DNA of 64,000 nucleotides from Paramacrobiotus metropolitanus (Eukaryota; Tardigrada; Eutardigrada; Parachela; Macrobiotidae), in contig NW_026570234.1 of NCBI RefSeq assembly GCF_019649055.1, positions 558,001 through 622,000 on the forward strand, given 5' to 3'. The position numbers and the translations under genes are program-made. The notes beneath the pieces are model-generated. The model ran no database searches. It saw only the letters and a program-made list of their open reading frames with translations, and was not told the DNA's origin. Below are positions 2,856 to 42,381 of the stretch, one piece after another (positions within the stretch are counted from its first letter, which is position 1; each line of letters opens with the position of its first letter).

Positions 2856-4620
2856 GTTTGGGATTTAGCATCAAGTCTTCTTTACTTATTGTCAAGTTAT
2901 CAACCAGTGCATGCAGCAGCATCCGCTTGATTTGAGCAGTTAACACAAGCAGAACTGACCAGCGCCCAGCGGTCAAAACCTGATAGCGCTAGATGTAGTT
3001 ATACCCCACTGCCATTTTAAATCACTATACGATATTGATTCTGCTTTAAGTTATTTTGTAGATATCCGCGCCAGAAGAGTTGCGTAGGAGTTAGTAAATC
3101 GAAGCACTTTAACAAAATTTTGGTTGAAATGATCAAAAGCGCTTTTGTACCGAAAGCCAGTCAGGCACGATCACGTAGATTCAGTTGATGTAATGCCCGT
3201 TAACTTAACAAGCAGTGCTTCCAAAACTATTGTTTACATTTACGGCGTACTGCAGATGTCTGACTGGAGAATGAATTCACAAGTAAGTAAAACGCTACAG
3301 CATACGTGGAACACAAACCTTAGGTCGCTTTTTCAGCTTTGGACGTCGCGGCGGGAGGCGACTTTTCGTCTTGGAAACAGTAAAAAGACCCGATCTATCA
3401 GGCATTTTATGGATTTCTTACTTTAACTTTAAAGCATCCAGAAAAGGTCTCTAAGGAAATGTGTGCTCAAGCGCGAAACCACCTTGTCGCAGGAATAATG
3501 TACGACGGGAATTTCTGATGCTGATAAGCATGTGTGAATACAGGATCTGATGGAATACCAAGCCAGCCAAAAATGAAGGCATAATCAAAATGTCGACGAA
3601 GTCCACGTCTCATTAGGTTTACGCTACGGTAGCTCCGTATAGTATATCGCAGTTTGCCTACTGCCCCACTCCTCTCTAGTTCGGTTCCCTCGCCGCTGCG
3701 TCACATACTCAGAGAGAGAGAGACGCTTTTGTGTCCAGAAGCGAATTTGACAGGCTGTTTACTTTTCCACTGGTCAAGCCGCTTCCAGAGTGGAAGCCAC
3801 TTGTTCAACCCATCGAGATACAGTATGTGACTCATCGCACTGCTGTCCGGCAGTCGCCGGGCAGACGAGTGATAAACAAAATTTTTATCTACTGCATTAA
3901 TATTCTGTGCTAGCTATCAATAATGCGCTGCTTTCATGGATATTGTTTAACAGTTTTCGATTAGGGTCTTCGGTTACGGGCATTAAACGCTGAGAGTTTA
4001 AAATTCAAATATAACAAAAGTTTTCTTTAAATTTTGAAAACTGAAAAGTCAGTTTAAATAATACGGTAAAAACAGTGCTTTTATACGGTGCCTTTACCGT
4101 TTCGCTATAGCAGATTACTAGTAAACCCAATAACGCAGATCGAAGATTTGAATGTTCATTTTAAAATAAAGAATGTTAATAGGTGATCTTCCGTATTAAT
4201 AGTCCGTTTTTAATTTAAATCTATGGTAGCCGTTATTTTGGCCTGTCTCACAAAAAAATTTATTGAATTCCGTGGTGCGAAACCGGGTCGCTTTCACGAT
4301 GCAACAATGATGAACAAAAGTGTGTCGTTTCGGATGGTCGCCGTAACAATTGTCAAACATTACCAGAGTGAAAGAAAAGAAACCCCCTAACGAAGTTGAC
4401 ATCTTTAATTGCTTGTGTCATAATTAAGCAACTTCTCTATTCGAGCCTGCAGGAAGTGATCACTCTACAGTCACGTATATGTACGCAACGGTTGTTTTTT
4501 CAATAATCCTAATTCATTCTGCATCTGTCGAAGCGCGGTGTACATTAATCCACTACGAACAATAGATATACATAGTAATTTTTCGACTATATTTTTACAA
4601 TTGCTAGCAAAAGTGCAAAA
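2856..4620. other. Intergenic spacer between divergent KDM2-like and astacin-like genes
   Basis: This is presumably the shared 5' region of two genes transcribed away from each other. A short AG-rich simple repeat lies at about 3712-3722. Open frames of 60-93 codons occur (3145-3426, 3731-3913 on plus; 4196-4402 on minus), but none resembles a known protein or has a clear exon structure. I see no RNA gene. Confidence 0.5.
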
Positions 4621-7054
4621 ATGTTTGCTCAGAAAAATGTGCTGCTTATCTGTGTCAGTATATTTGCCTATTGTGGGATAACTGCTGCCGACAATTACGT
4701 GGATAAATCTTTGACGGGAAAGCTTTCCGTGCAAGTTGGTATAACTACTGCCATAGTACGAATGAAGCGAATTTAAAATAACAGACTTCAGTGATTCTAT
4801 GGTACTTCATAACAGATTAGTTATGGTCATTCTCGATTTGTCAGAACATTATAGGAGTGATTTAGTACTATTTAAATACGGTATTTTTAGCTCATAAGGG
4901 AGTTTAAATCTCTACACGGTCTACCGAATAATACACGTATACAAATTATACCGGCACGTATACACGTATACGTGCCGGCACGTATACACGTATACACGTA
5001 TTTATGCGCTCGTCCAGCTTACGCTGCATAAAGTTGTGTAAAGTGTATACTCGGTAGACCGTGTAGAGATTTAATGTACAATTAAATTTGGCATTTAATT
5101 ATGGTTAATTTACTTGAGCGGAAGTGATTCTTTTGTATTCTACTGGCGCTCATTGCTTAGCAACAGTCTTGTGGTGGGTTGTACTCCTGAAACGTGCATA
5201 CAGATTATTAAGTTATTCGAAGTTTCAGAACAGTTGCGGCTGCATCCTGAATTTATGTAGTTCTGGTTTGCATGGTTTTTTCTCCCGTTCCGCCCGCCCT
5301 ATGCGCGGAGGCTTTGTCATGCTAGCATCCCATGTGCAGTTTTGTTCATAATAAAGGGGAGGTTCGGCTTGCAAGGGATCGGTCTGATAGCCAGCACCCG
5401 CACACCTGATCGTGGGCATTCGGGGCTGCTATACAGAAAGGTTGAGCGCACGGGATGTGCCTCAATCACCGCTTCCCGCACAACCGGCATCTCAAAACGC
5501 CCAAACATGTCGCCGTCGCTGCCTTCGTACAATGAGCGAAAGAAAATTAAACTCCCTTATGAGCTAAAAATACCGTATTTAAATAGTACTAAATCACTAT
5601 AACGAGCGCGGTATGGAAACTGTTATTTTAGGTGATTCCAAACGGAAGTCTTCGCAAGATAGAGACATTTTTTGGCAGCCCCACAATATGGTTGAATGCA
5701 ACAGTGCCGGTTGCTTTTGCCGAGAATTTATCCGGTAAGTCATTTCTCTTTTTACAGTAAAGAACCGCACTAAAAGATTAACAAAACATTTGTAACGAAA
5801 CAAAAGCAAGAATGAAAAAGTGCGTGTACCAGTGCACGAAACTCTTTGTAAAGCGACGCTCACACAATTTCAGGCAACGAAACCAATGCACTCCTCGGGA
5901 AGCTGGAGTCCAAACCTGTCTCCGATTCCCAGTGAAGTCAAACGAAAAATTACACCTTGTTCACCAAAGGGCCGGCGTAAGTGCAAAATGAGCTCCGTTA
6001 GCCCAAAGGACGCTCAAATTACTCAATCGTTCTCGTTTACCCAGTATACTTATATTTATATATGTATTCCAGATGTGCTGCAAATGTCGGGATGCAAGGA
6101 AAGCGACAATATGTTTTCTTATCAAAAGGTACGTTTTACGTATATATATTATTTGTTCTGTTATAACAATACCCAATGCCTACAATAGAAGTACTGTCTA
6201 GTACTATCGTACTACAAGTACAAGTACACGACGTATCGATAGTTTTTGAACAACAACACACCAGGTACAACGCTGTTTTCAATATTAATAATATCATAAT
6301 AAATTTTTGTTATTTATCCATGCAGGCTGTTTCACGCCAGCTCGAGTAGCCCGACAACTAATGCACGTTCTAGGTAAGAACATCTGTGCTCTATGGTCTG
6401 GTTCGGTTTGAAATAATCTATGTTTCAAGAAAAAATTCTTTACAGTTATCTGTTTTCATCATTGTTCGTCAGTATCGATATAAGAAAAACGTAACGTACC
6501 CCAGAACATCGAAAGGAATATTTTACTGTACATTTTATTCTCTCTTAGGTGTATAGTTATAGCAGAGTACAGTATGCAATCTAATAATGCTTTGTAGGCT
6601 TTCACAGTGAGCTGAATCGCCCAGACCGGGACCAGTATATCGAGATCAACTGGCAAAACATTCGAACAGGTATAGTAGTAACCAAAACCAATTGGCCACG
6701 TAAAACGTTTTAAAAGTGCTTTTAATCAAAAAGCTGTGAGTTGAGTTACACAAAACAGCAGCCAGAACCAACATCGTTGCAGGGTTCGTGCGGAGCTTCT
6801 CGAAATATTTGCCGGAAGCATTCCTCACACTGGATTTTCCATTTGATTTTGAATCTGTCAGCCACTTCGATGGAAACAAATTCGCCAACGATCCTGATAC
6901 ATGGACCGTACGATCCAAAAGTGATCCCAACGAACATTTAGGCAGCTCCAATTCTTTTAGTGCATCAGACATGGCAAAGGTAAACAAAATTTACTGCCAG
7001 TCGCAGCTGGACAATTCAATATTTGGGCATTCGGGAATGAAAGCGGTCAGGTAA
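4621..7054 (+). CDS. Secreted astacin-family (M12A) protein with degenerate active site, probable pseudoprotease
   Basis: Seven exons (4621-4734, 5632-5734, 5874-5931, 6073-6128, 6326-6373, 6598-6669, 6783-7054) join in phase to a 240-residue protein. It opens with a signal peptide (MFAQKNVLLICVSIFAYCG). Astacin hallmarks follow in order: a WLNATVPVAF segment, a VGMQGKRQ segment, the zinc-site region, GFHSELNRPDRDQYIEINW, the Met-turn region (FESVSHF for the usual SVMHY) and a final SASDMAKVNKIYC. The zinc signature HExxHxxGFxHE reads RQLMHVLGFHSE: the first His ligand is Arg, the catalytic Glu is Gln and the third His ligand is Ser. No proteolysis is expected; a binding, decoy or regulatory role is inference. 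The donor of exon 3 (5932) is weak, so that junction is least certain. Intron 1 contains an inverted-repeat element. The gene ends 26 bp from the convergent DUS4L-like gene. Confidence 0.8.
4856..5598. mobile_element. Non-autonomous DNA transposon-like element with 52-bp terminal inverted repeats
   Basis: Bases 4856-4907 and 5547-5598 are perfect 52-bp inverted repeats, starting AGTGATTTAGTACTATTTAA when read inwards. The interior (about 640 bp) has no transposase-like frame, so this resembles a MITE or an internally deleted DNA transposon. No clear target-site duplication was found. It sits in intron 1 of the astacin-like gene, and identity between the arms suggests a recent insertion. A second, smaller inverted-repeat element lies inside it. 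Confidence 0.75.
4904..5074. mobile_element. Small nested MITE-like element flanked by TTAA
   Basis: Bases 4906-4927 and 5051-5072 form a perfect 22-bp inverted repeat (AAATCTCTACACGGTCTACC and its complement, plus two more bases), and both ends abut TTAA. A TTAA target is typical of piggyBac-type elements, so a piggyBac-related MITE is a reasonable guess. The centre (about 4935-5000) is packed with ACGTATAC units and near-palindromes around GTGCCGGCAC. There is no coding capacity. Confidence 0.6.
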
Positions 7055-7080
7055 TTCCATATTGTTCCATCTGTGCCGCT

Positions 7081-8758
7081 CTACTGGTCTGCAATTTTTC
7101 TGGATCGATGTGGAAATAATCCGTAATATACTGTACGACATCTTCTTTCTTCTGCAAATCGCTGAATCTGATTCGCTCAGATTTCGACAGTATTTTTTCC
7201 GTCATCCATATTAAATGATGGTGGAAAATGCGAAATGGACACGACGGATCTCTTTGATTAATCTGGAGCTAAACAAAAAATATTAATGTCACAGTAACTG
7301 TTATCAGTTCTAACACGGCAACCAAGAAAAATGCGCGTGAATTCGGTTCTGATGTACGAATTGTGGCTATGTTTTTAACATCGCGTTTCATGAGTTAAAC
7401 AAGCGATTTTAGCAACTTACCCAGTCTTCAACACATTCCACAGGTGTCACATCATAGCCAGAAAACAGAGCAGGATTAATCAAAACCCCGTTAGCCGACA
7501 TAACTCCATCAGCACCCGTTGCAGCCACACACCGATCAATATCTGCGTATGTTTTAATATCACCGTTAGCGAAAACGGGGATCCTGACGGCTTCTTTAGC
7601 AATCCGAATGGCATCCCAGTCTGCAGGCTCGTTTTTCTGCTTCAGTGTTCGTCCGTGAATGGTTATGAAAGAAACACCAGCCGCCTCGAGTTGCCGGCAT
7701 AAATCCACGGTTTTGCTTTGAAGCAAAAAGCTTCGAATAATTTTTTATTACGTGACAATTAATATTATTCACTAATACCGAAAATCTTTTCTACAAAACC
7801 TACGAGATATCCTCATTCACTCGAATCTTTATAGATTTCGTAAAACTAGTTTCCGGAACCCGGTTCCACAGCTGCCGCACCATATCTTGGATCAGTTCAG
7901 GTCGACTCAAAAGATATCCTCCAATCTTTTCTCCAATCGCCCACCTTAGAAATTATATCGTCAGCAACAAGGTTAACAACACAAATACCGGAAGGAGCTC
8001 ACTTCTGAGGGCATCCACAATTAACATCAATCCCGTCGCAAAGCCTATACGATAAATTTTACAAACAATCGAAATTCCTGGTGAAACTCACTGCACTATA
8101 ATCATTTGCTGAAAAAAACGAAATTAAATAATTTCCGCGCGCGTACCCAATTACATGTTCAGCTGCGTCCAAAAGAATTTCCGGTGAGCTAGCACCAAAC
8201 TGAACGATAAGCGGGAAATCATCTGTGAAAAAAGACATACTATGTGAACTTTACTACTATGCGAAAATTTCCGAAAACCGTACGGCGAAGACTGTCTACA
8301 CAAAACGATCGTTATTTTTTAAGACACACCGAGACACCACTCTCACTTTGATCAGTAGAAAAATCAGCATCGCGAGCCTTAGCAGACTTTCTGAAAGTAT
8401 CCGCAGTAATCATCGGGCTGAAAACCACGTCTGCCCCCCATTTTCGCATCAAATGTCGAAACTGCAATCTGAAAAATTGCGTATACGGTATGTCTCGAAA
8501 GATTTTCTGTGCCGTAACACAACCGGAAAACAAAAGTGTCTATCTAACAAGCAAAAGTGAAACTTCCGCACTGATCCCAAATACGATAATTTTTACAACG
8601 AAGCTCAAAAAAGCTGGTGTGGAAACTTGAAACTGATATGAAGAGCGGCCAGAAAATGCTGTGTTCACTTACTTGGAGTACCTCACCATGGGAGCGCAAA
8701 TCTTCAAAGGTTTCTTCTCGTCCAAAAGTTCCAGTACACCAGATCGTTTCATCCTCAT
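7081..8758 (-). CDS. DUS4L: tRNA-dihydrouridine synthase, DUS4L type
   Basis: FMN enzyme predicted to reduce uridine to dihydrouridine in the tRNA D-loop. Exons read: first exon 8758-8673 (KICAPMVRYSK), then about 8470-8350, 8224-8146, 8052-8006, 7946-7800, 7720-7420 and 7265-7081. Family hallmarks in order: APMVRYSK; FSPMITADTF then KARDADFSTDQ; FPLIVQFGAS; DGIDVNCGCPQKWA, with the catalytic Cys in NCGCPQ; TIHGRT; PVFANGDIK; ATGADGVMSANG; and a C-terminal HHHLIWMTEKIL segment. Length (about 300 residues) and order match DUS4L, so the gene looks complete. The ATG at 8758 is chosen because it begins the conserved N-terminal exon; an in-frame ATG two codons later is also possible. It is convergent with the astacin-like gene and divergent from the coiled-coil gene. 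Confidence 0.9.
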
Positions 8759-9252
8759 TTTATAGCACCACCGAAAGAACGAATGCAAATAACTGCTCTA
8801 GGAATTTAATGAAAGCAAAAGTTTGGCATTCGTACTCAGTGCGATTTCTAAATTTTTACAATTTTACCTAAAAATGGTACTGCGGATCGGGAAAAGATGT
8901 GTGCTCGGCGCTGTACGCTTGGGTTGTCGTTTCCCCTTTCCACGTTTTCAGCCAAACGGCATGCCATACACGGCGCTCAGTAATGATTGTCCTGCTGGCT
9001 ACTGGACTGTGGCGAATGTGAAAAACGTTTTTCGTGTTTCAGCTGTCTGTCAAAACTAGGTTTACTTCAGCTTTAACTTTTTTTTTCCCTGAATCGAAAA
9101 ACGTTTTTCGTGTTTCAGCTGTCTGTCAAAACTAGGTTTACTTCAGCTTTAACTTTTTTTTTCCCTGAATCGCATTTCCACTTTATTTTTTCGCATTGTT
9201 TTGAGTTGACTAACCACATTTTTTATTAAAAGCGTATCATTTGCGATTAAAA
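8759..9252. promoter_or_regulatory. Divergent promoter region between DUS4L-like and coiled-coil genes
   Basis: This 494-bp spacer separates two start codons pointing away from each other, so it probably holds both promoters. Its one distinct feature is a 76-bp tandem duplication, listed separately. No TATA box or other core element is clear enough to call. Confidence 0.5.
9020..9171. repeat. Perfect 76-bp direct tandem duplication
   Basis: Copies 9020-9095 and 9096-9171 are identical, each beginning GAAAAACGTTTTTCGTG, itself a short inverted repeat, and ending in a T9 run followed by CCCTGAATC. Absence of any difference points to a very recent duplication, or possibly an assembly artefact. 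It lies 80 bp upstream of the coiled-coil gene start and may alter promoter or 5' UTR sequence. Confidence 0.9.
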
Positions 9253-12200
9253 ATGCTGCAGATCGAACAGGATCGTGCTGAAACTGCCGAACAAGTTGCG
9301 GAGCAGTTCGACGTGGAACCTGTCGTAGCTGACATCATGCTAGCTGAGGTTGATCATCACCTGGTACAGCTTGAAAACTGGTACGAAAAGTGGCAAAAAC
9401 TCAAAGACCGAAAGGTATGCAGTGTCGGACTTAACTTGTAGACACAAATACTCGCCGTTTAAAGGACGGCACCAGCTGCGTTTTTCGGTTTGCAGGGAGC
9501 TGACCTTACTCGCGGTCAGCAGAAATATGCGGCCATGCTGCAGGAACTGGAGCGCTCAGAAGGTGAAAAACTGAAACTGGAAACGACACTGCACAATGAA
9601 ATCCATTACCGTGACCAGAGCGGGACAAGGTACCAAACCTTAAATTAAACTTCTTCCAAAGGCAACTGCTGCCTACGCGATCTGGTGCCCCGTCTGGTTA
9701 TTTATTATAGTGTTTAATAATCCTAGCCTTTCCCGTATTGTAGAATGGATAAAGTTCGTCAAAGACTGGATGTTCTCATCGAGGATGTGGATTGCCTGTC
9801 GGATGTTATTCAGCAGTGTAAGTGGCCAAAAACCCGGAGTGTGATGAGAGAGGACTGATAATCACTGTACTGTCTGTACACAGTACAAGTAAGCAAATTT
9901 TATGGTTATACATGATAAATCAGCTCAAGTTAGAGCGAACTAACGTCTATATAACTAATAATTTTTTCATTTGACATTATTCTAATTAACATGAGCTTAT
10001 CGCAAGAGACTGTAAGTCGCGTACGGAAATAAGGTTTGCAGGTACAGATAAAGTAATTTAACGAAATTTACTGCATGCCCTTGGATTAGTCCTATTCGTA
10101 CGTTGCTTAATATCCCTGTCCAGTTAACAACTCTTTCGTCCCTTCGGTTGTGTCTTGCTGTAGTGAAACATGAGTTACATTTAAATTATGCGATTGTATG
10201 TATTTAAATAATTTTCGTCCCATGTGCTTTTTTGAACCATTGTTTTGGATGTTTTCAATTCTGTGTGGTTCTGTTAGATGACCTAGGTAAAGAAGCGGTC
10301 GAAAAAAACAATGCCTCCCGTCAGGAAAAGCAAAAGGTTTGCTTTCAATTGTACTTGCATTTTTCCTGAATTTTTCATTATTTCTTGCAGTCATGTAGCC
10401 ATTATTTACATGGGTCATTACTTTTCAGCAACTACTGTTTTGGTACGAATCGGCAAAAAAAGATTTGGTCAAACTTGAAAAGCATCACAAAAATAAAGGT
10501 CAGTTTCACGCTCGACTTACTTGGCTTGTATCCTTTGTGGAGTTTTCGTTATTTTAGCCCGACAGAAAGAAGAAAGCCTCGTGAGTCTTGCAGCAGCGGA
10601 AGCGGATCTCAGGCTTGAAGTAGGCTATAACTTTCGCTCAGTCGTTGGCATTTTCCCATTCGATAAGGAAAAGTGCTTTAATTGTTCAGCTGGAGACTCG
10701 CCGGAATTTCCTATCCCGACTCGAAATGGATTTAGCACGGTTGAATGAAGAGCAGAAAAAACAAGAAAGTGACAACACCGACAAAGCAGATGACATCGGT
10801 AACCGCAGTTTTGTTTTGTGTTCGAAATAGGCTGAGCTAGGTTGAATCGGTTTGCAAAACACTTAGGGCAAGCAAAAAGCAGCCTTTTGGAACTGCAAGT
10901 CCAACTGGAATGCTGCAAATCGGCTCTCAGCCTTGCGGAAAAAGAAGCGGAGGGAATATCTGTACGACTTCCTTTTATCTTATTTTAGCTTCTTCCTCTG
11001 GTTAAGTGTTGCCGTGTATACTTGTTTGTAGTCGGAACTGCAAGAAACCAAAACGGTACTTCAGTTACGTCGTGTGGAATATGAACAGCAACTGTGCAAC
11101 TTGATGGCTAAAGAATCAAAGTTATCTGCTCTTCGATCCAACTGGGAAGAAACCATTTTGTCAAAGCAAAAAGTAGTTGAAGACTTAGAAACAGCTGGAA
11201 AGTCATGCCAGACCCGGTCAGTTTAGTTTTAGTAATTTGTTAGTAATTTTATTTTTAATTTTAAGATTAAACTGGCTTCCGTAAAGTTAAGGTAGCCGTA
11301 TATTTAATCCTGGATTATGCAGTGTTGAGAAATTGTCGACGTGATTTGTGTCCTTATTTTCAGTCTTGATGCTTGGGAAGTCGAAAGAGTTCGTTTAAAG
11401 GGAACTTTGGCTGAACTGCAGCTGGAATATGGTATAATACAAAAACTGTCGTTGTGGTTGCATTAATTTGATGCTCTCTCTATTTAGGCAAGAAGGATGT
11501 TCACATTGCGGAATTGAAAGACCAACTTCAACTGCTCCAAAATGCAAATGTAATCGCTACGCTACAGTCTGTATGGTGTAGAGAATCCTATAATGGAAAT
11601 CCGACAAGTTGATGTCATTTAAATTGCGGTATCTTAATTTGGGTTACGCGCGCTTTTACGATTTTAGGAAAATTTCCGTGAAAAACATTTAACTGCTCAA
11701 GATCAGTTACGTTGTATTGGAGATGCTCGTGATTCCTTTGAGAAAGCATCGCAGGAGAAAAAGAACGAAATTTTGGTACGTACCAGTTCCATAACATTTT
11801 TATGTCTGCATTTCTCGAATCACGCTAGATGCAGGAGTAAGGTAGACACGGGCGTTGTCTGCGTGCACGGGTGACCCCGGTCACCGATCAAGAATTAAGA
11901 ACATTTTAAGCAGCCATTCAGTTTGAAAATGTTTTAGCTCCGGCGGTGTTTCCGGTGCAAGCAGAGTCGACCTTTTTAATTTTAATAAACTATTGGCAGG
12001 AAACTGTGAGCAAAGAAAAATCACTTCTTGAAAGTGCGCGAAACAAGAAGGACTTTCTGGCGAAGTTATGCAGTCTGAAAAGGGAAGAAGTCAGTTCGTT
12101 GCAGGTACATATATCCTTGACACAAATACTTGAGTATCTGATGTCCACATTAACTTCCTCGCATTTTAAAGCAGACATTATGCTTTTTAATAACAAATTA

Positions 12201-13123
12201 TGTGTTATAGACTCGCGTCCAAGAACAGAATGCTGCAAACGAACTGGAACAGCAACGACTTTCCCAGCAGGAAATTACTACCATCATGTTGAGTCCGTAA
12301 GTCGTCCATTGCACACCTAGATTTCTCCTATACCGATAACGCCTTCGAATAAACCTTACTTTTGTAGTCCACCTACCCAGCAAGCAGAACAACCGGCACA
12401 AAGCAAACCGGGTCAACCAACATTTTTGCAACCACGTCCGCCTGCCGCGGGAAAAGTCATGCATCCACGACCCGGTCCAGTGGTGCCACGAAAGCGTGCC
12501 CTTTCTATGAGCAGCAACGAAAGCGAATATGTTGACCTCCCAGTAAGAAAATATTAATTCTAAGAATTTGGTGAAGTAATATTTTGAACTGAATGCGACT
12601 TTCACAATTTTGTTGCAGACTAGCGTCATTATGTCGGAGGATTCGGTTCGTGGAGATGATTCCCCAAAACGCATTCGCGAGGCAGCAAATACTGTAAATC
12701 GACTTGAGTATTTCAGCTCCCAATTGTTTACTGGCTTACATTTTATTAGATTACTATTATACTTTGCAAATTTAAGTATGCGGCAACGTACTTAAATTTG
12801 CCCCCATTTTTTAAATATATATGATTAATAAACAAAGAAGTAATATTATCCATTTGTATTGAGTAGGCCTTACCAAAACGGTTAAAGAACAAAATAATTA
12901 CTCATATGAATAAATCGGTTAGTTATTTCTTGAAATTTTTCTTTAGCAGGAATTCTACAGCGATCGCGCCACTGCAGCATCCTCAACCATGAAAGCTCGG
13001 ATGAACAGAAAGATCTCGGAAGAACTGAACAGGAAGGGTATGGCTCCGCCGAAAGTGCCCGCTCGTGGTCGGCGTGGTGGGTTGAATCGCGGTAATCGTC
13101 ATGGCCGTTTGGAATTTTTGTGA
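9253..13123 (+). CDS. Long coiled-coil protein with basic RG-rich tail, unrecognised
   Basis: Seventeen short exons can be chained in phase (9253-9414, about 9496-9630, 9744-9817, 10277-10337, 10430-10499, 10559-10619, 10690-10799, 10868-10970, 11031-11218, 11365-11432, 11489-11549, 11668-11775, 12001-12104, 12211-12298, 12368-12541, 12620-12695 and 12951-13123). The product is about 600 residues. Roughly the first 440 are heptad-like and rich in Glu, Lys, Gln and Leu with almost no Pro, meaning extended coiled coil. A Pro-rich linker follows (QPAQSKPGQPTFLQPRPPA), then a Ser/acidic stretch and a basic tail (PARGRRGGLNRGNRHGR). I do not recognise a family. Layout would suit a filament, centrosome, kinetochore or synaptonemal component, but no domain supports one. 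Splice sites are canonical, so a real gene is likely even though its function is unknown. Confidence 0.75.
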
Positions 13124-13718
13124 TTACTTTAATGGACTCTGTTCAGCAACTGCGACACTAAGCTTTCCCCAAGAAAAGTCCGTTAAAAGAAAACAGTTCC
13201 CAGACAAAGGTTGAACGTAGAATTCTGTTGCGTTACATTTTGTTCGGTTTCGTTGTACGTGATCAGATCGGTGTCGTGTTTTGTTGGCTTTTGGAGATTA
13301 TTGTTTGATTTGGTTACACGACGTGACGACGGTTAGTCGACTGGTTGCGGTGCCATATTCTTTCCAGAGTACTCCAATTTTGGGCATAAATCAGTTTTTG
13401 TTATTTTCGATGTGGTGTTTTGCTTTTTCTTTCTGTTATATTAAATGCAAGAAATTTTGAGAAAATCTTTGTGCTTCTATGTGATTTCCAATATCTGTTT
13501 GAAATTATTTCGATATTTACATGTATTTGAACAACTTTTTGTACCAAGTACAAAATCATAGGAACATAATATACGAATACCGGATACGAAGTACTTATCA
13601 CTTTCACAGATATCTTGTATGTGCACTTTGTTAAGTGACGCAATTTTTATTGAATGAATCTGTCAGTAACGAATTATTTTAAATTTTGAGGAATGTAATA
13701 GAATCTGGAAGTCTAGCC
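13124..13718. other. Convergent 3' spacer
   Basis: AT-rich sequence between the stop of the coiled-coil gene and the stop of the PAW-domain gene. It should hold both 3' UTRs. I see no gene in it. Confidence 0.5.
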
Positions 13719-16101: not shown

Positions 16102-17909
16102 CTAGTCATCCATAATAATTTCCTTTTGAGATGCCTTCTCGCTTTGGTTTTTCTTATAGTTCACTGTTGACTCCCGACATTGCCCAGCAAACCACCATTT
16201 ATTCATATTTTCATACGATTTACGAATCCGCTCTTTCGGTGGGCGGTGCAGGAGTTCGCATATTTTACAAAAACTGCTGCTCTCCCTGTTGGGAATTCCT
16301 GGCATATACCACAACGGATTTGGGGGATACTTCCATGCGAAATGTTTTAAATACGCCTCTTCATTCCGCATTAGATGGATTAGATATTCCGCCAACGCTT
16401 TGGGAGATGGATAATCCTCGACGTTTATCACCGCACCGGGAGGCAGAAGTTTTTTGTAGTCCGCGCCTCCGAGTACAATTGGTACGACGTCATTGTTGAG
16501 AGCGCGATACAGCTTCTCGGTGGCATAGCCTTTGCAGATGCTGAAACACGCAGCAATTCTGGCACATCAAACTTTACAACATAGTATTAGATATATTTAC
16601 CTGTTTTCAAATGACAAATAGAACTTAAAATGCTTGATCAGATCTTCCGAATCGCAGCCATTGGCGCCATGCTTATGTCGGCATGGATCGGGCTGATCAC
16701 ATTTGCCTAATTTGTCGATGCTGACATATTTTCCCAGTTCAGCAGCATAATCCTCCCGCTTACTGGCCGTGTCGCAATGGGATACCAGCCACAGGATGTC
16801 ACGCTTGGAGGCATACCACAGTGGGTCGGTTAAGCGGGATTGATTAAAATGACGAGGCGTGTATCCTCCTGAAAATCAGCAGTCTATAATTTAAGACAGC
16901 CAATTTTTTGTTATAAATGCAAATATAGATACAATACTTTATGGATACGTATACGTACTATTATCGCATCTGTATTGTACATTGTAGATTTGTAGTTAGC
17001 ATGATTACATTAATATACAATATAAATATTATAACAAATAAGTATTACAAAAATTACTTTTTGATTTTATCACAACCAATAATCCGTATATTCATACAGT
17101 GCATAAATCAGTTTCTGAAACTATACTCACCTAAACTGTGTATACTTTATTTTAATACGCTCACAAAGTCACAATCAGTTGTCATGCATGTTATCATTAA
17201 AATGATAGTCCGTTAATGATACTGCACCTGTGGCTGTATATAAAAATGTTATTTTGAAAGGTTTATGTAAAACTGACTACTAGCTTTCACATCTCCGCAT
17301 GTGCCTTTATTGAAGCGGGATCAACTGTAGAAAATTACCGGTGTATAAATCGGAGTATATGTCGGAGTCCAACCGATACGACATGGTCAGATTGAAGAAA
17401 CCCGGATGATTATCCCAAGCGCGATAATTCATCAGCTTCTTCGTCGTATCAGGTGATTCGTCCAAATGAAAAATATAGTACACAGACCGATTCCTGGCGG
17501 ACTGATGGGGTAAGTCCCGGGTTAAAATCGGGCATGTAAAGATGATCGCACTGGCTTGCTTCCGCTCATTGCGATTCGTGACGGCGAGACACCGGCTTTC
17601 TGGACAGTTCTTGAACCAGCCGGGCTGATTGTGCTGGTCATACGCCAGCTGTTCGCTGTTCCACTTTGTCCAAATTAGCATTTTTTTGTACGCACCGCCG
17701 GTGTTTGTGGAACTCTCGGCTATCATGTTCTGCGATGAAGCAGAATCGTTTTCACTTCCGTATCGAAAAACCTTGTCATAGTAGTAACGCTGATCAAACA
17801 ACAAAGTCACGCTGTCAATTAGACGCGAGTGTGGAATCACGGTGTAAATGCAGAGAAAACTTAGCAGTCCCATAAGAACAAAATACGTATGCCGTTTTTC
17901 TGGCTCCAT
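16102..17909 (-). CDS. Alpha-1,3-fucosyltransferase, GT10 family
   Basis: Golgi type II membrane enzyme predicted to move fucose from GDP-fucose to N-acetylglucosamine or the N-glycan core. Three exons (17909-17339, 16868-16601, 16540-16102) close exactly to 425 residues. A short cytoplasmic tail MEPEKRHT is followed by one membrane anchor (about residues 9-25), then a stem and catalytic domain. Diagnostic segments: ILTRDLPHQSARNRSVYYIF, FNLTMSYRLDSDI, a KRDILWLVSHCDTASKR region and the GDP-fucose binding motif YLSFENSICKGYATEKLYRA then VPIVLGGADY. All are standard for GT10, and length is normal. Core alpha-1,3 versus Lewis-type specificity cannot be told from sequence alone. Intron 1 is about 470 bp and AT-rich, with no gene. 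Confidence 0.9.
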
Positions 17910-19229
17910 TGGAGTTTCGCTGTCCGTAGTCAGCCATCAGTGGGAAGGTAAATAAACATTTACGTACAAGTACAGTTAAATGCTAAGCAGTTCGAAACTA
18001 TGAAGATTTTAAAGTGTGATGTGAATTTTTCATCAACCATATTGTTCATTGATGATCTCTGAGCAAAACGTTGGTCACAGTCTCACAGACAATGCGCGGA
18101 ATATAATCTTCAGCTACCGGTCAGACGCTCGCAGGTTTATACGAAGGTCATGAACTATCACTTGCCTTGAGGCATACGAAAGGTTCGTATCGCAGATACT
18201 GTATTGTAGACTTAACGAATGTCTGCGTACTGAAACATTTGAGTAGTACTTTCATTTGAAACAAAATGCTCGCGGCTTCCACAGACAAATTTTATTTGCT
18301 TTAAAAAACAAAATAAAACGTAAAAGGCTAAATATGAACAGCAATGAACAACAGCGCACTTAAATACGGGTTAAATACGTGACACACCATACCAGCTAAA
18401 ACAACTTCAGGATTAGAATTTCGGCAACAGTTGGTCAGTTTGAAATCTAAAGCATTCAACGAAGACGGCAAAATACACAGCATATTGCATAAGCCGTTAC
18501 AAGCAGTTTATTTAAGTATAACAACGTAAATGATATATCGTCTGTAAAATATAAAACGAAAAAAAACTGTCTGCTGAATAAAGTAAGAACTTTGGTAAAA
18601 CAGTGAAAAATCCTAAAATCATTTGGTAAAAACCAACTGACGGCCATCAGTCTCTCTCTCTCCACGTTTTGATGTGCAAAAAATTGTCCAACATTCTGCT
18701 TGGCCCAGTATTCATTCTCAAACATATATGGCACACACTCAAAAACTGGAAGCTTGGAACTGAGCCATTCAGTTATGGGATTTCTGACTATCCCGCAGCA
18801 CTGTAGGTATATTAATAACAAAAGGTTGCGTATGAATACTTCCGCCGGCACAGTTGAGCATCCGGGTCGCCATAAGGAAAGATAATGGAAAATTATGGAT
18901 ATATGTTGTGAGATAATTGTAATATAAGTAATCCTGCAAAAAAAAGAGCAACATACTAAGTTTTGGTTGCGTAGATCAGTCCATTTAATTTAATTAAGTA
19001 CATATACAGTACTTGCATTATTAGTACAATATATATCAATCAGATCGTAACATTTTATGTACCGCATATATATGATTTAAGAAATTGTTAGACGTTCTCA
19101 GTTGGCAGCTGCAGTATGCTTCAGCTGTCAGTGGTAGCATAACGATAACGCACAATTAACAAACAAGCAATATGAGCGCAATACTCACTTGCTAAATATC
19201 GGAGCATACATAATTTAATCGATCGCTGA
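17910..19229. other. Spacer upstream of the fucosyltransferase gene
   Basis: It contains a minus-strand open frame of 131 codons (18851-18456) that I cannot match to any family and that lacks supporting splice sites or a convincing start. The segment EWLSSKLPVFECVPYMFENE within it looks less random than its surroundings, so a lost or undiscovered exon is possible. The rest is AT-rich with no feature. Confidence 0.4.
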
Positions 19230-40330: not shown

Positions 40331-42381
40331 ATGGATGTGAAAGCCGAATTTGAGGCTCTGCGACAGTCTCCATCGGACGGTAATAAACCAGTAATCAAAG
40401 TCATGGAGAATCAAGGGGACTATAAATTCATCGTATCTGTCCTTCCAAACAAGGGATTTCCTGTGAAGATTCAGTTCTTTCTACACGGTATGTCGACATT
40501 TCTTTGGTTTTTATAGCCGTGAGATTCTGTACTCGCACAGATGTCCGATAATCAATTAATTATACACCGTGTACAACATTTCTGTAGAAGTACTCGAGCT
40601 CGTTAGTGACATGAGATTGGTGGATAGTTGTTGAAACTTTTGTGCTATAAAATTGGTCTTGAGATAATGAATATCTGCGTTTTTTGGAACAGACAACTAC
40701 CCAGATTTATTGCCGGACATATTTGTAAAGCGTAACGATTCCACTTCCGCTTCCAATATCTTGCCGGACAACCTTTGCGATAACCTGCGTACCGTGTTAC
40801 TTGAAGTTGCCAATGAGTGTAAAGGAACTCCTATGTTGAAAAAATTAGCCAACAAAGCAGAGGAATTTCTCCAGTCCAATACCGAAATTGTAACAAATTC
40901 CGAAAAGTTGTTACCACTCCCCTCGACGAATGCGAAATCCGAAAAAAGCAAAACCGCCAGACCTGTTAATACGACTGTCACCACAGAAGATCTCGAAACA
41001 CCGGAAAAGAAAAAATTGCGAACAGCAGAGGATGTCATTTCCAGGATTTTATGGGATGACAAACTGGATACAACATGCTTTACCGTTGGATACAATGACC
41101 GGTTTGCCGGCTTAGTGGAAGAAAAATTCAATGCCTTCTGCTGGGATCAGCCGATCAATGCCGTTGACAACGACACACTGGCCATTCCGCAGCATCGTAT
41201 CCAGTATTTTAAGTACAAACAGGTCAAAGTGTGGGATAAAAATGAAAGACTGGACTTGATTTTTGGATCATCCGGCCATAAGGGATCGATTTATGACATG
41301 ATCGCGGAATTTGAGACAGCGGTGAATAATGCCGGAAACGAAGATACAATCGTTGCAGGAGGTACGGCATGTATTTTAGATACAGTATATTTATAAAAAT
41401 ATAGATAATACAGTACTTATTGTACAATGTGCGCAGTTACTAATTTAATTACGGTACGTGTACTTTGTATCGATAACATTTGGGAGTGATGTATAAGGGT
41501 TTTTAAATTAGTATAAACTAAACACTTACCGTAGATTGATGTACTCGTAACTGCTTAATAACTAATCTGTCATTCATGATGCTAAAAAAATTTGAAAATC
41601 GAAAAAGCAGACAAACGTTAACACTATCGGTTAGACAATGTATACGTGTTCATCTTCTAGACTTCTAGTTAATTATCTTGTTTTTACAGGTGATGCATCC
41701 GAAAAAAAGAAGCCTGACTTGAGCGATGACGATCTGGAATTCGATGACAACTTGGAGGAATCAACCGAAAAGAAATATCCAAATGTGAACCGTCCGAATT
41801 TCTTTGTGGCAGTCCGAATGACCGATCCAGAAATCCTGGCTAAAGCCCAAGAAGTTTCCGATCATATTGCCGGAATGGAGCCAAACTTTAAAATCTGCTG
41901 TTTGCCGGTGAAATGCCTGCACATTACTCTAGCTACGCTGCGGTTGAATGGTTTGTCCGATATCACCCATGCGGTGTCGGTCCTGCGCAACATGCGCGGA
42001 AAATTACGTGAAGCATTTCCGGAGCCGATTGAGTTGGACATTGCCAATCTGGATACTTTTTATCAGAATGTTCTCTTTGCAAAGATAAAAGATAACGCCA
42101 CATTCATGGAGTTTGCCGACAACGTTCGAAGTGGACTGCAGCGAGGCGCTGTCAGAATTGTGGATAATCATAGTTTCATTCCACACATGACGCTCATGAA
42201 AATTACCAGACCAGTCCAGCGTCAATTTTCTCACAGCAGACGTATTGATCCCAGTGTCTACATCAGATTTAAAGATGCCGTTTTTGGGAAGCAGATTGTT
42301 AAAGATATTTATTTGTGTCCTATCGGAGTAGATCGAAGGGAAGATGGTTTTTATCAGACTGTGATGGAAATGGATTTTTAA
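40331..42381 (+). CDS. RWD + MJ1316 (DUF504) + 2H phosphoesterase protein, LENG9-like
   Basis: Three exons (40331-40487, 40693-41361, 41690-42381) close exactly to 505 residues. Residues about 1-95 look like an RWD domain (EFEALRQSP, then YKFIVSVLPNKGFPVKIQFF and NYPDLLPDIFV). Residues about 165-250 are an MJ1316/DUF504 domain (AEDVISRILWDDKLD, VGYNDRF, IPQHRIQYFKYKQVKVWDK), which is proposed to recognise cyclic phosphate RNA ends. Residues about 305-505 are an AKAP7/LENG9-type 2H phosphoesterase with both catalytic motifs intact (CLHITLATLRL near 350 and FIPHMTLMKI near 441), so activity on 2',5' or 2',3'-cyclic phosphodiester bonds is plausible. The combination suggests RNA end repair or turnover, possibly linked to damage or antiviral RNA processing (inference). 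Human LENG9 carries the last two domains. Confidence 0.88.

Follow-up and report, generated by a model that had tools for sequence, protein, structure and literature searches.

The gene at positions 4621-7054, on the + strand of the 64,000-nucleotide stretch of Paramacrobiotus metropolitanus DNA analysed here (the window), comprises seven exons with GT/AG ends and encodes an astacin-family product in which the zinc site is largely dismantled. It raises the question of whether such a protein is a pseudoenzyme kept for a function other than catalysis, as the initial annotation had proposed, or a former protease in decay.

Gene structure and its two assembled copies

Exon 1 (4621-4738, + strand, as are all exons of this gene) contains the start codon and encodes a signal-peptide-like N-terminus (MFAQKNVLLICVSIFAYCGITAA...) and the start of a pro-segment, ending in phase 1; its end at 4738 was taken from another assembled copy of this locus, in which the frame is open. 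The N-terminus is hydrophobic (nine-residue mean of up to 3.28, at residues 7-15), as would be expected of the signal peptide previously proposed. Intron 1 harbors a transposable element (4856-5598) with 58-nt terminal inverted repeats, which is present in both copies of the locus and parts of which match other contigs (52 matches including both copies; 69-100% identity). Exon 2 (5632-5734) encodes further pro-segment and the beginning of the astacin domain, while exon 3 (5874-5976) encodes the early domain with the first disulfide cysteine.

The zinc motif region is encoded from exon 4 (6073-6128; CAANVGMQGKRQYVFLSK) onward. Exon 5 (6326-6373; GCFTPARVARQLMHVLG) has Arg (6352-6354) at the site of the first zinc histidine and Gln (6355-6357) at that of the catalytic Glu, with the second histidine kept (6364-6366). 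In exon 6 (6598-6669; GFHSELNRPDRDQYIEINWQNIRT) Ser (6606-6608) occupies the site of the third histidine and the family Glu (6609-6611) is retained; a phase-1 intron follows position 6669, as in several relatives. Exon 7 (6783-7054) encodes the C-terminal subdomain and the stop codon, and includes SVSHF (6854-6868) and the last disulfide cysteine. Read in splice-consistent frames, exons 4 to 7 give CAANVGMQGKRQYVFLSKG-CFTPARVARQLMHVLG-FHSELNRPDRDQYIEINWQNIRT-GFVRSF...DFESVSHFDG...KIYC, the motif region running across the junctions as CAANVGMQGKRQYVFLSKG, CFTPARVARQLMHVLG and FHSELNRPDRDQYIEINW. The junctions 6128/6326 and 6373/6598, on which the earlier reading of the motif depended, are both in phase and bounded by GT/AG. 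An alternative frame of exon 4 (VLQMSGCKES) was rejected for its phase mismatch with both neighbouring exons; the CAANVGMQGKRQYVFLSKG frame suits exon 5 and the family.

The genome searched comprises 169.8 Mb in 533 contigs, the window being located on contig C14, and the locus is assembled twice, with the second copy at the start of contig C176 (window 3434-13418 against L039; 90-98% identity by block). Over the gene, the two copies differ by no substitution in 768 aligned exon bases and by three in 1663 intron bases. Exons 4 to 7 are identical, while exons 2 and 3 differ in length. The C176 copy has an open frame of 261 codons in seven exons, with GT/AG at every intron, and contributes the domain's N-terminal half, including TCLRF, which completes the set of four cysteines. 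In the window copy, by contrast, the frame is disturbed in exon 2 and exon 3 is broken: if exon 1 is ended at 4728 or 4734, translation meets a TGA in exon 3 (5933-5935) as its first stop, this being the frame that leads properly into exon 4, and with the end at 4738 the motif falls out of frame and the first stop lies at 6608-6610. The window copy is thus open with none of these three exon-1 ends (4728, 4734 and 4738), nor was an open homologous frame seen by eye among the alternative exon 3 donors and acceptors considered, a non-exhaustive selection. The earlier statement that no stop interrupts 240 codons therefore applies to the C176 copy, with its 261 codons, and fails for the window copy.

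Length differences between the two contigs occur in both directions along the locus. The neighbouring gene encodes a tRNA-dihydrouridine synthase (Dus; e-value: 5.8e-28), and one of its exons reads through in the window but has a broken frame in C176. As this is the opposite of the pattern in the astacin gene, the frame breaks in the window copy are read as probable assembly errors or consensus noise.

The astacin domain and its zinc site

The spliced C176 protein matches the Pfam astacin profile PF01400 over positions 2-189 of 189 (e-value: 4.1e-42; Bitscore: 144.5; cut-off: 22.5), a score which excludes a chance match. Astacin was the only Pfam domain found in this protein at e-values up to 0.1, and NCBIfam returned a single bacterial astacin model at 82.5 bits, against a cut-off of 300. 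Matches to PDB structures begin at an e-value of 3.3e-27 despite the lost site.

The zinc motif reads RQLMHVLGFHSE here, against HExxHxxGxxHE in active astacins, and in the PDB alignment to meprin beta HEFLHALGFWHE pairs with RQLMHVLGFHSE and SVMHY with SVSHF. RQLMHVLGFHS is identical in the window and C176 copies and departs from the HExxHxxGxxH of an active astacin by replacement of the first histidine with Arg, the catalytic Glu with Gln and the third histidine with Ser; the second histidine is unchanged. The spliced reading thus bears out the loss of two of the three zinc histidines and the catalytic Glu on which the initial annotation was built. Its description of the Met-turn region as maintained was wrong, as both copies carry SVSHF at 6854-6868 in place of SxMHY (SIMHY in the motif definition), Met being replaced by Ser and the zinc-binding Tyr by Phe. 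Within the segment given there as PxDRDxYIxINW, RPDRD is present, and the region pairs with HEFLHALGFWHEQSRSDRD of meprin beta in the PDB alignment. SELNRPDRD furthermore preserves the family-specific Glu and the ExxRxDRD signature after the site of the third histidine.

Astacin has disulfides C42-C198 and C64-C84, as described, together with the motif definitions, in the available part of a review of the family (PMC9848320). The four corresponding cysteines are all present in the C176 protein sequence (TCLRF, ACAAN, GCF and IYC), and the two bonds themselves are predicted. With two zinc histidines, the catalytic Glu, the Met-turn Met and the zinc Tyr gone, the predicted gene product is, as judged from its sequence, a pseudoenzyme.

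Sibling astacins in the genome

Sibling astacins were sampled at 150 places out of 164 Astacin profile matches and a further 22 from a protein search, with 40 of 137 surrounding regions examined. This sample, which is biased to high-scoring canonical members and may contain allelic doubles, yielded 83 distinct domain fragments, including a few exons of the window gene, and with the C176 domain added comprises 84 rows. The column of the first histidine is visible in 66 of the 84, one of which is the window gene; it is the sole exception to a histidine kept in 65/66 rows. All three zinc histidines are present in each of the 65 other motif-bearing exons sampled, so that within the sample the window gene alone has lost any. 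The catalytic Glu column is more variable across the same 66 rows (E 54, L 8, V 1, M 1, G 1 and Q 1, the last being the window gene). Intact HExxH siblings, whose presence in the genome was a suggested check on the initial annotation, are plentiful, with Glu in 54 of the 65 sampled, while 11/65 lack the catalytic Glu with the three histidines intact.

In a 64-row tree, changes between Glu and other letters take four steps, whether the motif columns are included or dropped. Seven Glu-to-Leu rows (L038, L047 (6732), L057, L065, L066 (6499), L077 (4413) and L079 (732)) form one clade (100/96; 99/96 without motif columns), to which two fragments too short for the tree (L055 (7393) and L079 (4789)) are also assigned; the clade is marked by HLVLH and similar motifs, and the two fragments read HLVLH and HMVLH, the latter having Met. 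The zinc Tyr is also lost in three members of the clade. Like the window gene, these proteins lack the catalytic Glu and otherwise retain the astacin domain, but they keep all three zinc histidines and represent a separate loss on the tree. The least saturated pair in the clade has a dN/dS of 0.115 at a dS of 1.17. Among six Glu-bearing control pairs, two gave 0.136 and 0.187 at dS values of 0.57 and 0.56, three gave 0.054-0.104 at dS 1.5-3.2 and one was saturated. The existence of this Glu-less clade, with the low dN/dS of its least saturated pair, suggests that the genome retains dead astacins.

Beyond this clade, altered Glu positions were also observed in L036 and L062 (HVVMH and HGFLH). 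Toward its C-terminus, L079 has a stretch similar to leucine-rich repeats (Toll-like receptor 13; e-value: 1.6e-6), with Pfam LRR_8 below its cut-off; no such repeats were found in the other clade members scanned (L057 and L038), and in a Glu-bearing sibling on L066 they scored below the cut-off. A HELLH-group astacin in L074 (+ strand, ~5000-5350) has an in-frame stop directly after the Met-turn and is either a broken paralogue or a sequence error.

The 64-row tree places the window gene among 13 rows which share a phase-1 intron (96/91; 96/90 with motif columns dropped). Its last intron lies in phase 1 after NIRT, and a phase-1 GT donor is found at or near the same place in 10/13 of the relatives' fragments (L022, L044 (twice), L050, L051, L052, L062, L063 (twice) and L075), being absent from L049, L074 and one L063 fragment. 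When the long rows L062, L075 and L076 are omitted, the nearest rows change and no starred set includes the window gene, and an AU test on its placement without these rows was non-decisive (p = 0.439). As the placement shifts without these three rows, the parent group is unsure, and the shared intron can serve only as a hint to it.

Retention or decay

We favor, with a probability of about 0.6, the interpretation that the gene encodes a secreted, disulfide-bonded astacin-fold pseudoprotease with a short pro-segment, devoid of catalysis and zinc, which is kept for binding; its secretion, its fold, the absence of zinc and its retention by selection are each presumed from the features described above. 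The ancestor would have been an active astacin from the large family in the same genome. One copy of the gene encodes, in an open frame, a signal-like N-terminus, a pro-segment and an astacin domain. From the known chemistry of astacins, as given in the available part of PMC9848320, a domain without the first and third histidines and the Tyr would not hold the catalytic zinc, and one without the Glu would have no general base. The retained cysteines and structural motif would keep the secreted domain folded, and the folded domain, acting as decoy or partner, might then bind what its active siblings cleave or what inhibits them; both binding partner and role are guesses.

Retention is supported because the C176 copy is open, with GT/AG at its introns and all four cysteines, and because drift would almost surely have introduced stops. 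The latter was assessed by a simulation of free evolution at seven divergences with 4000 runs, scoring how often the five site codons (15 bases) would gain 8 or more changes while the gene stayed free of stops, where 8 is a hand-counted minimum and the five codons were chosen post hoc. The joint chance was at most ~3e-5, with 3.2e-5 obtained at 0.3 changes per site and 3.5e-5 at 0.5 changes per site, the latter from a single stop-free run in 4000; at 0.8 changes per site, 0/4000 runs were stop-free. The simulation omits indels and splice sites, and counting either would lower the joint chance. This result argues for retention, but for no particular function. As such, the retained pseudoenzyme of the initial annotation stands on the open C176 frame, the kept cysteines and the drift test, and is weakened by the broken frame of the window copy in exons 2 and 3, which had been overlooked. 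Also counted for the favored interpretation are the Pfam and PDB matches despite the lost site, the kept family Glu and RPDRD, the Glu-less sibling clade, and the over-representation, discussed below, of the changes to Arg and Gln in other substituted HExxH proteins.

The chief competing explanation, which we consider unlikely but take seriously, is a young pseudogene or segregating null allele, in which the loss of catalysis was followed by a decay still in progress and further advanced in the window copy than in the C176 copy. It would account for the early stops and altered exon lengths seen in the window copy (exons 2 and 3), and the transposon in intron 1 would suit it. In an alignment of 50 paralogue rows, 26 columns reach 90% conservation or more; the window gene keeps 18 of these, and that three of the eight lost are metal ligands speaks for retention, whereas the five other losses and its rank as the least conserved of 51 rows (the next least keeps 20/23) speak against it. 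In each of the three trees built, no row has a longer end branch, which is the outcome expected under relaxed constraint. Synonymous differences reached saturation in every one of the seven comparisons of the window gene with paralogues, which precludes a dN/dS estimate for it. Against decay stand the open C176 copy with GT/AG throughout, the drift chance of at most ~3e-5, and the two-way length differences with a Dus exon broken only in C176, a pattern which resembles consensus noise.

The losses beyond the zinc site would also suit an altered role, and the protein could be a structural or matrix component, for example of cuticle or eggshell, unrelated to proteolysis or to the siblings. The retained fold-holding cysteines agree with such a role, but no second domain accompanies the astacin domain in the Pfam search at e-values up to 0.1, and we regard this explanation as improbable. 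The motif region still has two histidines (6364-6366 and 6603-6605), and an active metallopeptidase with a site rebuilt from the retained histidine and the adjacent histidine of GFHSE might be envisaged; this is scarcely credible, as the first histidine, Glu, Met and Tyr are all absent and the second leftover histidine lies one residue off the ligand position in the PDB alignment. Sequence errors are probably present at the locus, but that the motif loss itself is an artefact of exon choice or sequence error is highly improbable, given exons 4 to 7 that are the same in both assembled copies, GT/AG at their junctions and a gapless alignment to meprin beta from the motif onward.

The window gene might be placed in a wider scheme, which we advance tentatively and judge to have the odds against it. 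Dead astacins would form a standing set beside the active ones, arising through four separate losses of Glu on the tree of the genes sampled. From one of these losses a clade would have spread that retained its zinc histidines, with the window gene as the extreme case in which the metal was also given up. As secreted decoys or partners, these proteins would together tune a large extracellular protease repertoire.

Relation to known inactive peptidases

With the astacin family (MEROPS M12A; PF01400), which includes crayfish astacin, the meprins and BMP1/tolloid, the window gene shares the whole catalytic domain, the four cysteines, the family Glu, RxDRD, a signal-like N-terminus and a pro-segment. 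It differs from active astacins in lacking two of the three zinc histidines, the catalytic Glu, the Met-turn Met and the zinc Tyr.

Inactive M12 proteins are known among the ADAMs, with unc-71 and ADAM2, 7, 11, 18, 22, 23, 29 and 32 tabulated in the available part of PMC11266112 (Table 2). As described there, these proteins resemble the window gene in having a metzincin domain with a substituted HExxHxxGxxH, such as QSIGHLLGLEHD in unc-71, and in being kept as non-enzymes, but they belong to another M12 subfamily, carry disintegrin and further domains, and in the tabled rows retain the Met-turn Met. Among proteins with a substituted HExxH, changes of the first histidine to Arg and of Glu to Gln or Leu are over-represented, and decoy or accessory roles are expected for the ADAM cases, according to the available part of PMC3650047. 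The first two of these favored changes, shared with substituted-HExxH zincins such as CLCA, are those of the window gene, and the third is that of the Glu-less sibling clade. The zincins concerned are of other families, section 6 of the same partial source naming reprolysins, ADAMs, CLCA, BSP, M2 and M54 but not astacins.

The portion of PMC11266112 at hand discusses M12 pseudopeptidases for the ADAM branch and mentions "astacin" once, within a list of metzincins, and the word "inactive" does not occur in the corresponding portion of the astacin review PMC9848320. No inactive astacin was found in titles and abstract beginnings among the literature matches listed, a weak negative. Inactive M12 proteins are thus already known as a kind from the ADAMs, at least as covered by that part of PMC11266112, and the window gene adds an astacin member. 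Of the two, the Glu-less clade may be a better lead than the window gene. Together with this clade, an unambiguous pseudoprotease of the astacin family would provide, within one genome, a natural series from enzyme through probable metal-binding non-enzyme to metal-free fold, and would make the purpose of each part of the site testable.

Other features of the window

A search of the window against Rfam gave no matches at gathering scores. Adjacent open frames on the + strand (40671-42378) encode MJ1316, RWD and AKAP7 2'-5' RNA ligase-like domains, and perhaps constitute one gene of an RNA-end processing type. On the - strand, exons encoding the N-terminal and C-terminal domains of a family 10 fucosyltransferase are located at 16105-17936.
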